Assembly: GCA_913055695.1 (NCBI GenBank)
Contig: CAJXKF010000003.1
Coordinates: 1 to 64,000 of the forward strand
Origin: an uncultured Methylophaga sp.
GTDB lineage: Bacteria > Pseudomonadota > Gammaproteobacteria > Nitrosococcales > Methylophagaceae
DNA: 64,000 bases
Reading direction: 5' to 3'
Below, one piece after another: positions 41,843-48,588 of this stretch (position 1 is its first letter; every line of letters begins with the position of its first letter). The notes beneath the pieces were generated by a model. The model worked only from the letters and a program-made list of their open reading frames with translations, searched no databases and was not told the origin of the DNA. The translations under genes and the position numbers were made by a program.

Positions 41843-41936
41843 TTCAAGCCGCTGGCGTTTCTGCCGATTAACTGGATAAGATAGTCACTGTGTTGCTGCC
41901 GGGGTGAGCCTGTGATCAAACCAATTTTTGTCTGTC

Positions 41937-43022
41937 ATGATAGCTAAGCAAGAAATCCTCAACGCCAACATCCTGCTGGTTGACGATCAGCTGGTGAATA
42001 TCAAACTGCTGGAAAAGATGCTGCGGCAGGCCGGTTTTGCCTCGATTTTCTCCACCACCCGGCCGCAGGAAGTCAAAACTCTCTACTTCGCCAATGAGAT
42101 TGATCTCATCCTGCTCGATATCCGCATGCCTGAGATGGACGGCTTTGAAGTGATGTCACAGCTCCAGGCCGAGATCGAGAATGATTATTTGCCGGTACTG
42201 GTGGTCACTGCCGAGCTGACCAGCCAGACCCGTGACCGTGCTTTGAGCAGTGGTGCCAAGGATTTTATTACCAAGCCTTTCAACCAGTCTGAAGTGCTGC
42301 AGCGAATCCGTAATATGCTTGAAGTCCGGCTTTTGCATAAAGAAATCCGTTTGCAGAACGAAACGCTGGAACAACAGGTCCGGCAACGCACCCAGCAACT
42401 GGAGCAGAGCCGGCTCGAGATCATCAAGCGTCTGGGACGCGCTGCCGAATACAAAGACAATGAAACCGGCAACCATATTCTGCGCATGAGTCACTTTGCC
42501 CATATGCTGGCTAAAGCTGCCGGACTCAGCCAGGAGCAGTCAGATAATATTCTGCTCGCCGCGCCGATGCATGACATCGGTAAAATAGGCATTCCCGACC
42601 ACATACTGCTAAAACCCGGCAAACTCAACCCCGACGAATGGGAAATCATGAAAACGCATGTCAATATCGGCGCTGACCTGCTAGACGGCACCGATATCCC
42701 ACTGCTGGTCACGGCGCGCAATATTGCGCTCAGCCATCACGAAAAATGGGATGGCAGCGGCTATCCGCAAGGCCTCAAAGGCGAGGCAATCCCGATTGAA
42801 GGCAGGATCTGCGCCATCTGTGATGTATTTGATGCATTGACTTCGGAACGGCCCTATAAAAAGGCCTGGCCGCTTGAGGAAGCAGTGGCTTTTCTGCGTC
42901 AGCAGAAAGGCAAGCATTTCGATCCGGAGCTGGTTGATTTGTTTGAGTCCATTCTTGACGACATACTGACCTACCGCGCAGCCCACCTGGATAACTTCAG
43001 CGATCAGGCCCGGTCAGCCTAA
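41937..43022 (+). CDS. Response regulator with HD-GYP phosphodiesterase domain
   Basis: 361 residues from ATG 41937; a TTG three codons earlier is possible, and no clear ribosome site separates them. The receiver domain (about 10-130) has DD at 16-17 and phospho-acceptor D61 in LLDIRMPEMDG. A coiled linker (about 135-165) leads to the HD-GYP domain with MHDIGKIGIPD and HHEKWDGSGYPQGL, so catalytic residues are intact and c-di-GMP hydrolysis is predicted. No histidine kinase is adjacent. It sits between ispB and the ferredoxin-like gene. Confidence 0.93.
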   Translation: MIAKQEILNANILLVDDQLVNIKLLEKMLRQAGFASIFSTTRPQEVKTLYFANEIDLILLDIRMPEMDGFEVMSQLQAEIENDYLPVLVVTAELTSQTRDRALSSGAKDFITKPFNQSEVLQRIRNMLEVRLLHKEIRLQNETLEQQVRQRTQQLEQSRLEIIKRLGRAAEYKDNETGNHILRMSHFAHMLAKAAGLSQEQSDNILLAAPMHDIGKIGIPDHILLKPGKLNPDEWEIMKTHVNIGADLLDGTDIPLLVTARNIALSHHEKWDGSGYPQGLKGEAIPIEGRICAICDVFDALTSERPYKKAWPLEEAVAFLRQQKGKHFDPELVDLFESILDDILTYRAAHLDNFSDQARSA

Positions 43023-45920: not shown

Positions 45921-46634
45921 ATGTCAACTCATGCTGAGGCTGACAAGCTCAGAGATCGCGTTATTCTGATTACCGGTGCCGCTCGCGGCATCGGTGCCTC
46001 AGTAGCTCAGGCCTGCGCCGCACAGGGTGCAACGGTCGTATTACTGGATAAACTCGTGCCGGGGCTTGAATCAGTTTATGATGACATCATCGAGTCCGGT
46101 GCGCCGGCACCAGCCATCTACCCGCTGGATTTGAAAGGCGCCTCAGTGCCTGACTACCAGCAATTGGCAGATACGATCCAATCCCAGTTTGGCAGGCTTG
46201 ACGCACTGATTCATTGTGCTGCTGCACTCGGACAACTGGCACCGGTAGAACATCAGGACAGCAAAACCTGGCTGGAAACCCTGCATATCAATCTGACTGC
46301 GGCCTACCTGCTTACCCGTGCCTGCCTGCCTCTGCTGAAAAATCAATCCGGCAGCAAGCTGATTTTTACCACCGATGCACACAAGCATAACGCTTACTGG
46401 GGTGCGTATGGCATCAGCAAAGCTGCAATTGAAGCACTGGCGGCACAAATTGCTGATGAGTCGGAAGCCCAGGGAAAACTCAGCGTGCATACCATTGATC
46501 CCGGTCCGGTTCAAACAGAACTGTTCGCAAGAGCATTTCCTGCTACTGATCCGGCCAAATTACCCACGCCGGACCAGCTAGCCCCCCGGTATATTGCCCT
46601 GTTATGTGAAACCGATCACAGACAAGCCAGCTGA
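45921..46634 (+). CDS. yciK: Short-chain dehydrogenase, YciK-like
   Basis: 237 residues. The nucleotide loop TGAARGIG is near residue 20 and the catalytic YGISK near residue 160, with the serine replaced by Thr-Thr in the FTTDAHKH stretch. Such replacement and the sequence around VEHQDSKTWLETLHINLTAAYLLTRACLPLL are like YciK, an SDR of unknown substrate. It starts 5 bp after the lipoprotein gene, so the two are cotranscribed. Confidence 0.82.
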   Translation: MSTHAEADKLRDRVILITGAARGIGASVAQACAAQGATVVLLDKLVPGLESVYDDIIESGAPAPAIYPLDLKGASVPDYQQLADTIQSQFGRLDALIHCAAALGQLAPVEHQDSKTWLETLHINLTAAYLLTRACLPLLKNQSGSKLIFTTDAHKHNAYWGAYGISKAAIEALAAQIADESEAQGKLSVHTIDPGPVQTELFARAFPATDPAKLPTPDQLAPRYIALLCETDHRQAS

Positions 46635-46724
46635 AGCTTGATCACAGCGATCTGTCAAAACGCTGACACGCCATTTTAAATCATTGTTTTTATTGTTGTT
46701 TTACAGGATGGCACGGATATCGCT

Positions 46725-46759
46725 TATAACACTTACCTTCTGTAAGGATAAGTGTTATG
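46725..46759 (+). promoter_or_regulatory. Inverted repeat that covers the SD and start codon of the diguanylate cyclase gene
   Basis: Bases 46726-46739 pair with 46744-46758 in a 14-bp stem with one bulged A (46748) and a four-base loop CTGT (46740-46743). A T-G pair (46725/46759) can be added. The 3' arm contains AAGGA (the ribosome site, 46744-46748) and the A and T of the ATG at 46757, so an RNA folded this way would hide both. Alternatively, TATAAC at 46725-46730 is a possible -10 box, in which case the repeat is a DNA operator over the promoter and the left arm is not in the transcript. Confidence 0.75.
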
Positions 46760-47683
46760 GAACAGCAATTACCGAACAATAACAGCAAGCTGAGCCTGGT
46801 CAACGGTGGACTGACAGCCCCCCAGCCCGTGGCCAGCAATAGCTCAGTGCCGGCTGAAGAAATCGTTAACCGCCTGCCCGCTGTGTTGCAGACCACGCTG
46901 ATACTGGAAGACTTATTGCCGCTGTTCGAACAACAACTGCGTCAGGTCATGCAATTCGACAGTTTCCACTACCAGCATATGACACTTAACTGCCAGATCG
47001 ACAGCGACACTCAGCGTCATCACCGCTGTCATTACAAACTGGATATGAATGGCCAGTATCTGGGCGACTTGACCCTCACACGCCGTCATAAATTTACTGA
47101 AAAACAGATCGCATTGATTGAGGATCTGTTGTGTCAGCTCGTCTACCCACTGCGTAACTGTCTGTTGTACAAGCAGGCTTTGAACTCTGCCCTGCTTGAC
47201 GATCTGACCGGTTTGGGTAACCGCGCCGCTTATGAAAAGAGTCTGCAGCGTGAGATTGAGCTGGCACAGCGTCAGCAATCCGAGCTGTCTTTAATTATTC
47301 TGGATATCGATAACTTCAAAGCCATCAATGATGCCTATGGTCACAGCAGTGGTGACCGGGCACTGAAAGCGCTGGCCGAAACCATCAGCCAGACCATGCG
47401 CCGCAGTGATATGGCCTTCCGTTTCGGTGGCGAAGAGTTTGTACTGCTGCTCAGCAACACCGATGCCGAAGCGGCGGCTATTGTTGCAGAACGTCTCCGG
47501 ATCGCCGTCTCAGAAACCCTATGTCATGATGGCAAACGCGGTTTCGGTTTTACTGTCAGTCTCGGTATTGCTCAACTTGATGCGGAAGAACACGGATATC
47601 ATCTGTTCGAACGGGCCGATATGGCACTTTATCAGGCTAAGCAGACTGGCCGGAATACGGCAGTCTGCGCGCCTCAGTCATAG
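46757..47683 (+). CDS. Diguanylate cyclase (GGDEF domain), intact active site and I-site
   Basis: 308 residues. The N-terminal part (about 30-140) looks like a small GAF-type sensor domain without membrane segments. The GGDEF domain (about 145-305) has DDLTGLGNRAAYE, DIDNFKAINDAYGHSSGD and the active-site GGEEF at 224-228. An RRSD (215-218) lies five residues before it, the RxxD inhibitory site for product feedback. It should make c-di-GMP in the cytoplasm. Its start codon and ribosome site lie in a strong inverted repeat. It converges on rluB. Confidence 0.93.
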   Translation: MEQQLPNNNSKLSLVNGGLTAPQPVASNSSVPAEEIVNRLPAVLQTTLILEDLLPLFEQQLRQVMQFDSFHYQHMTLNCQIDSDTQRHHRCHYKLDMNGQYLGDLTLTRRHKFTEKQIALIEDLLCQLVYPLRNCLLYKQALNSALLDDLTGLGNRAAYEKSLQREIELAQRQQSELSLIILDIDNFKAINDAYGHSSGDRALKALAETISQTMRRSDMAFRFGGEEFVLLLSNTDAEAAAIVAERLRIAVSETLCHDGKRGFGFTVSLGIAQLDAEEHGYHLFERADMALYQAKQTGRNTAVCAPQS

Positions 47684-47694
47684 CAAAAACGAGC

Positions 47695-48588
47695 TCAGCG
47701 GCCGCGGATACGAGGCCGCCGTTGCGGCTTGTCTTCACTGTTTGACTTGCCTTTGTAAGGCGAGGCGGCGGGTTTAGTCGCTGCTGCAGGACGCCGCTTA
47801 TCCGCCTTCTGAGCGCGCTTGACGCCAGCTGCCGGTTTTTTGGCTGATGCCGGTTTCATTCCAGCCTGCTCGTACAGATAATCCAGATCACCGCCTTCCA
47901 GCTTGGTCCAGTGACCGATGCGCAGATTATGCGGCATGATAATCGGTCCGTAGCGTACCCGCATCAAACGACTGACTTGCACGCCCTGGCTTTCCCACAG
48001 ACGGCGTACTTCACGATTACGGCCTTCCTGAATCACCACGTGGAACCATTTATTGGCACCTTCACCGCCGGCTTCCTGAATATCGTTGAATTTAGCTTCA
48101 CCATCATCCAGCATGACGCCGTCACGCAGCGTTTGCATCATTTCCGGTGTGACCTCGCCCAGAACCCGCACGGCGTACTCCCGGTCCATTTCATTGGCAG
48201 GGTGCATCAGGCGGTTAGCAAGCTCACCGTCGGTGGTCAGAATGATGAGACCACTGGTATTTAAATCCAGCCGACCAACACTGACCCAACGGCCCTGTTC
48301 CGGCTTGGGCAGCGACTGGAAAATAGTCCGGCGCCCTTCCGGATCACGGCGGGTACAGACTTCTCCGATGGGCTTGTTATACAGGATCACCTGCTGCGGC
48401 TGTTGCCACAGTCGTTTGGGCGACAACGGCTTGTTATCCAGCCGCAGGCGATCGCCTTCACTGATTTGATCACCGAGGCTGGCGGTTTCACCATTACGGC
48501 TGACCCGGCCTTCTTTGATCCAGGTCTCTATCTGCCGACGTGAGCCGTAACCGGCCCGGGCCAGGACTTTTTGAATACGTTCTGCCAT
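47695..48588 (-). CDS. rluB: 23S rRNA pseudouridine 2605 synthase
   Basis: 297 residues: an S4 RNA-binding domain (about 1-60; MAERIQKVLARAGYGSRR), then the RsuA/RluB catalytic domain with GRLDLNTSGLIILTTDG, where the aspartate is catalytic (near residue 108). A Lys/Arg/Pro/Ala-rich basic tail follows from about 245, as in RluB. The gene follows trpS by 6 bp and converges on the diguanylate cyclase gene. Confidence 0.92.
   Translation of the reverse strand: MAERIQKVLARAGYGSRRQIETWIKEGRVSRNGETASLGDQISEGDRLRLDNKPLSPKRLWQQPQQVILYNKPIGEVCTRRDPEGRRTIFQSLPKPEQGRWVSVGRLDLNTSGLIILTTDGELANRLMHPANEMDREYAVRVLGEVTPEMMQTLRDGVMLDDGEAKFNDIQEAGGEGANKWFHVVIQEGRNREVRRLWESQGVQVSRLMRVRYGPIIMPHNLRIGHWTKLEGGDLDYLYEQAGMKPASAKKPAAGVKRAQKADKRRPAAATKPAASPYKGKSNSEDKPQRRPRIRGR

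Follow-up and report, generated by a model that had tools for sequence, protein, structure and literature searches.

The window, a 64,000 nt stretch of DNA from an uncultured Methylophaga sp., encodes a diguanylate cyclase of 308 amino acids that matches the Pfam GGDEF domain (6e-47) and carries both of the motifs that a first-pass annotation had described, GGEEF and RxxD (here RRSD). An orthologue from the same genus (L003) is 71% identical; a link to PA3177 of P. aeruginosa is conceivable, and the study consulted on that gene is silent about its promoter. The gene is preceded on the same strand by a short-chain dehydrogenase-type (SDR) gene, for which the YciK family is the best NCBIfam match, under its cut-off, and which ends ~75 nt before a σ54 promoter. 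The start region of the cyclase is spanned by an inverted repeat, and the coordinates of all features are summarized in Table 1. A response regulator carrying an HD-GYP-type HD domain (Pfam HD_5; 41928-43022) is encoded 4 kb upstream of the cyclase, and its product is possibly an opposing c-di-GMP phosphodiesterase. In three small genomes of the same family (G024, G076 and G077; 1.1-1.5 Mb) the cyclase copy is absent and GGDEF candidates are almost nil, which suggests a loss of c-di-GMP signalling.

Table 1. Features at the cyclase locus (positions are those of the window).
Feature	Position	Strand	Basis
SDR (YciK-like) gene, codirectional, likely source of read-through	45921..46634	+	Pfam adh_short, 1.5e-35
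Candidate FleQ/FlrA-type activator site, GTCAAAACGCTGAC	46654..46667	.	GTCAN6TGAC conserved in the family
σ54 promoter TGGCACGgataTCGC, TGGCACG-N4-TCGC, -24/-12 elements	46709..46723	+	Motif conserved in orthologues
Hairpin left arm, ATAACACTTACCTT	46726-46739	+	46726-46734 upstream of predicted +1; arm-swap test
Predicted +1	46735, +/- 1-2 nt	+	σ54 geometry, with C46723 as -12
Hairpin loop, CTGT	46740-46743	+	
Hairpin right arm: AAGG (46744-46747), bulged A46748, TAAGTGTTAT (46749-46758)	46744-46758	+	
Diguanylate cyclase gene (GGEEF, RxxD)	46757..47683	+	ORF, Pfam match

The promoter has the GG and GC dinucleotides of the -24 and -12 elements at a fixed spacing, and these are conserved in orthologues. 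TGGCA-N8-GC precedes the start codon in nearly all Methylophagaceae orthologues and in most orthologues class-wide. Across dozens of gammaproteobacterial families this promoter lies near the start codon of this cyclase family, which is unusual conservation for a GGDEF gene. The genome encodes one rpoN. Transcription from σ54 promoters depends on rpoN and starts ~12 nt past the -12 element, and the predicted start given in Table 1 follows from this geometry. The first-pass annotation had noted TATAAC as a possible -10 box; the sequence is present at 46725-46730, but it lies directly 3' of the σ54 -12 element. A σ70 scan of 46500-47800 found no promoter on the plus strand, and a σ70 start at TATAAC was rejected on this ground. 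A genome-wide search for σ54-like patterns gave 29 matches, versus 24 for the reversed pattern, so that most are chance matches; plausible ones lie ahead of a pilA-like (pilin-like) and a flgK-like (FlgK-like) gene (L170 and L185).

Upstream of the -24 element, 34 of the 42 Methylophagaceae loci have the GTCAN6TGAC pattern (allowing at most one mismatch) at a distance of 51-56 nt, whereas 1.4 would be expected; at loci with a divergent neighbour it is mostly located 76-109 nt upstream of -24. The pattern resembles the FleQ consensus, published as GTCaNTAAAtTGAC (PMC6120874). One FleQ-domain protein is encoded in the genome, and a FleQ-type activator probably drives the σ54 promoter of the cyclase. 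The locus resembles FleQ/FlrA-controlled σ54 promoters in its -24/-12 elements, in the GTCAN6TGAC site upstream and in that the genome encodes rpoN as well as a protein with a FleQ domain; it differs in that FleQ binding is only predicted at the window site and in the added RNA lock described below, which is undescribed for such promoters in the literature examined. The two favoured distances of the site from -24, ~55 nt in Methylophagaceae and ~88 nt at many divergent-neighbour loci, differ by roughly three helical turns.

The inverted repeat (46726-46758) folds into a hairpin of 14 pairs with a single bulged A and a 4 nt loop, and two further G-U pairs are possible outside the 14 bp stem. 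The Shine-Dalgarno sequence AAGGA (SD; 46744-46748) and the AT of the ATG (46757-46759) lie within the right arm. This is the fold over AAGGA and ATG given in the first-pass annotation, with the AT of the start codon paired. The same annotation had called such masking rare by chance. The fold is better than those of all 200 dinucleotide shuffles (z -3.8; z -4.9 for the leader alone), but its energy ranks only fifth among the 77 SD-plus-start sites of the window, and equally good folding is found in ~0.6% of AT-rich 39 nt windows. Since the hairpin is not unique by energy, the case for a function rests on comparison with relatives and not on rarity. A hairpin formed by chance and without function, which would be in keeping with the other hairpins of such energy in the window, is disfavoured and highly unlikely: the relatives have coevolving arms at the same place (see below), and the near relative L002 retains the stem, in which a single A has become G so that a G-U pair remains, amid upstream intergenic sequence that has changed far more than the stem.

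With +1 at ~46735, positions 46726-46734 would be untranscribed and the gene's own mRNA would therefore lack most of the left arm, keeping only a CCTT/AAGG remnant of 4 bp. The first-pass annotation had reasoned that a start at or after about 46736 would leave the left arm untranscribed and so speak against its reading, and the predicted start nearly coincides with this limit. The computed cost of opening the region -14 to +5 around the start codon is 17.5 kcal/mol in read-through RNA versus 5.1 kcal/mol in the σ54 RNA of the window; the corresponding family means are 12.7 and 5.1 kcal/mol, with 7.8 kcal/mol when the left part is taken from another orthologue. Among 43 Methylophagaceae leaders, sequences running from -11 to the start codon fold below their shuffles (mean z -1.35), whereas the same leaders taken from +1 have no excess structure (mean z +0.44).

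These results bear on the proposal of the first-pass annotation that the stem is an RNA thermometer, a riboswitch or the target of an sRNA or a protein in the normal mRNA of the gene. An SD and a start codon under a stable stem would suit such a switch, and a trigger could bridge the low difference in opening cost. However, the conserved σ54 promoter has its predicted start within the left arm, on which ground the switch was rejected, and the leader from +1 is as unstructured as shuffled sequence. An Rfam search of the window gave no match, and the same gene and promoter occur without the stem where the upstream neighbour is divergent (see below). Most of the left arm lies beyond the normal mRNA as predicted. 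Control by temperature, a ligand, an RNA or a protein is unsupported, and we regard it as very improbable.

Coevolution of the arms was assessed on single stretches around the orthologues. The arm pairs vary widely among relatives (CTAGT/ACTAG, TTTAATCC/GGATTAAA, TTTACTCTAA/TTAGAGTAAA and TGGGT/ACCCA), and RNAalifold on 19 MAFFT-aligned leaders returned zero pairs and no consensus structure, because the stems shift register. For this reason an arm-swap test was used, in which each left arm is paired computationally either with its own right arm or with those of other orthologues, and the duplex energies are compared. For 21 Methylophagaceae leaders that are less than 60% alike, the energies were -7.4 kcal/mol (own) and -4.2 kcal/mol (swapped), with a z of -6.9 and none of 5000 permutations reaching the observed value. 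The arm comparison that the first-pass annotation had recommended is therefore in favour of pairing, and its claim that the ribosome site is masked is supported by the coevolving arms of the relatives. Sliding windows limit the pairing to -27 to +4 for the left arm and to about -22 to +1 of the start codon for the right arm. In many relatives the -24 element is paired too, its GGCAC or GGCAT lying opposite a GTGC or ATGC next to the SD; this outer stem has a z of -3.8. In L005, L015, L021 and L022 the left arm comprises most of the promoter. The outer stem is missing from the window sequence, whose inner stem is longer. The inner stems of some family members (L006, L008, L012 and L027) are weak.

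The first-pass annotation had offered as an alternative that the repeat is a repressor operator at the transcription start; we considered a DNA operator bound by a dimeric repressor or activator. The palindrome does span +1, and CTAGT..ACTAG is common to many relatives. Relatives differ freely, however, both in the sequence of the arms and in the distance between them, which would be incompatible with a fixed protein site, and an operator was rejected because neither is conserved. It would also leave unexplained why the -24 element pairs with the SD region and the dependence on neighbour orientation described next, and we consider it very improbable.

Loci outside Methylophagaceae that have the same promoter and gene, and in which the neighbour upstream is either codirectional or divergent, served as a control. 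In the codirectional set (34 loci from 20 families) the arm-swap z was -5.6 overall, with a median of -3.5 when one locus per family was taken, versus 0.1 and -0.4 in the divergent set (50 loci from 35 families); these statistics are to be read with the distance limit for 'codirectional' fixed after a first look and with crude gene calls. Family means of the shuffle z were -0.63 for codirectional and 0.15 for divergent loci (p 0.007), for sequences that share ancestry and species that are not independent. Leader GC content and length are alike in the two sets. When the left part is extended to -27, a weak signal is seen in the divergent group too (z -2.8); the contrast between orientations is strong but not absolute. 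A further alternative is that complementarity around +1 aids not translation but the σ54 promoter itself, in the melting of the DNA or by forming a hairpin within the opened strand. It agrees with the match of the left arm to the polymerase-melted region in Methylophagaceae, but the divergent-neighbour loci have the same promoter without the hairpin, and no hairpin across +1 was seen by eye at the σ54-like promoters of the pilA- and flgK-like genes. We consider a role of this kind highly improbable.

In all Methylophagaceae loci with enough sequence the same SDR gene lies upstream in the same direction, with 35-97 nt between its end and the -24 element. No terminator-like site was found in the window gap between this gene and the promoter, and such sites occur in the gap in only two of 41 Methylophagaceae loci. 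Given a +1 inside the left arm, the complete hairpin would be present only in RNA that reads through from the SDR gene. We conclude that the inverted repeat is likely to be a silencer of read-through that overlaps the σ54 promoter. Computed support comes from the hairpin, the promoter motif and its conservation, the coevolving arms, the dependence on orientation and the predicted difference in accessibility. RNA entering from the SDR gene would carry both arms and fold, closing the SD and the start codon of the cyclase; we infer that such read-through occurs and that it is blocked from translation in this way. RNA from the σ54 promoter, beginning at about 46735 within the left arm, would retain the 4 bp remnant and be translatable. 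The cyclase would then be made on demand of σ54 and its activator, and not whenever the SDR gene is transcribed.

Comparable arrangements are known. In the fold-back inhibition of IS10 transposase, the start region is covered by a fold of the read-through RNA and the element's own promoter starts within the repeat, as proposed here; the differences are that IS10 is a mobile element and that its arms are terminal repeats. For the phage T4 genes e (lysozyme), soc and I-TevI, the ribosome site is reported to be concealed by a hairpin in long transcripts from upstream, and a promoter at the left arm gives rise to a shorter, hairpin-free mRNA that is translated (PMC3014915, PMC2988022). The window element shares with these the hairpin in read-through RNA and an own promoter at the left arm. 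Its layout is that of gene e, with the left arm (46726-46739) mostly before the predicted +1, the right arm over the SD and start codon, and the SDR gene as a codirectional upstream unit able to run through. The T4 systems differ in having phage late promoters and being experimentally proven, whereas the present case is chromosomal and computed only, and in that the promoter here is a σ54 promoter whose own -24/-12 sequence is often the left arm. For Bacillus subtilis sigG, a chromosomal case, a large hairpin that is unable to form in the gene's own transcript was proposed to block translation of read-through from spoIIGA-sigE (PMC5942855). It is likewise confined to read-through RNA, but involves a σF/σG promoter and a sporulation gene of another phylum, and the sequence is unrelated. 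A literature search, limited in reach, found neither a σ54 case nor a dependence on neighbour orientation, and a general search on read-through masking was likewise without result. The new points here are that a σ54 promoter acts as the antisense arm and that the hairpin is tied to gene orientation; read-through masking itself is known.

We put forward tentatively, as a possibility on which we would not yet rely, that the σ54 promoter, including its -24 and -12 elements, is doubly selected, the DNA serving the polymerase and the RNA pairing with the ribosome site of the gene it controls, and that the lock comes and goes as the neighbour changes orientation, as a general insulation of tightly controlled genes from read-through. 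If the read-through silencer holds, a device known mainly from T4 and one sporulation gene would also serve a widespread c-di-GMP gene, and would apparently have re-evolved several times. The presence of an RNA lock would be predictable from gene orientation, so that a simple comparison could test other internal promoters for insulation from read-through. It would also mean that accidental expression of this cyclase is selected against.
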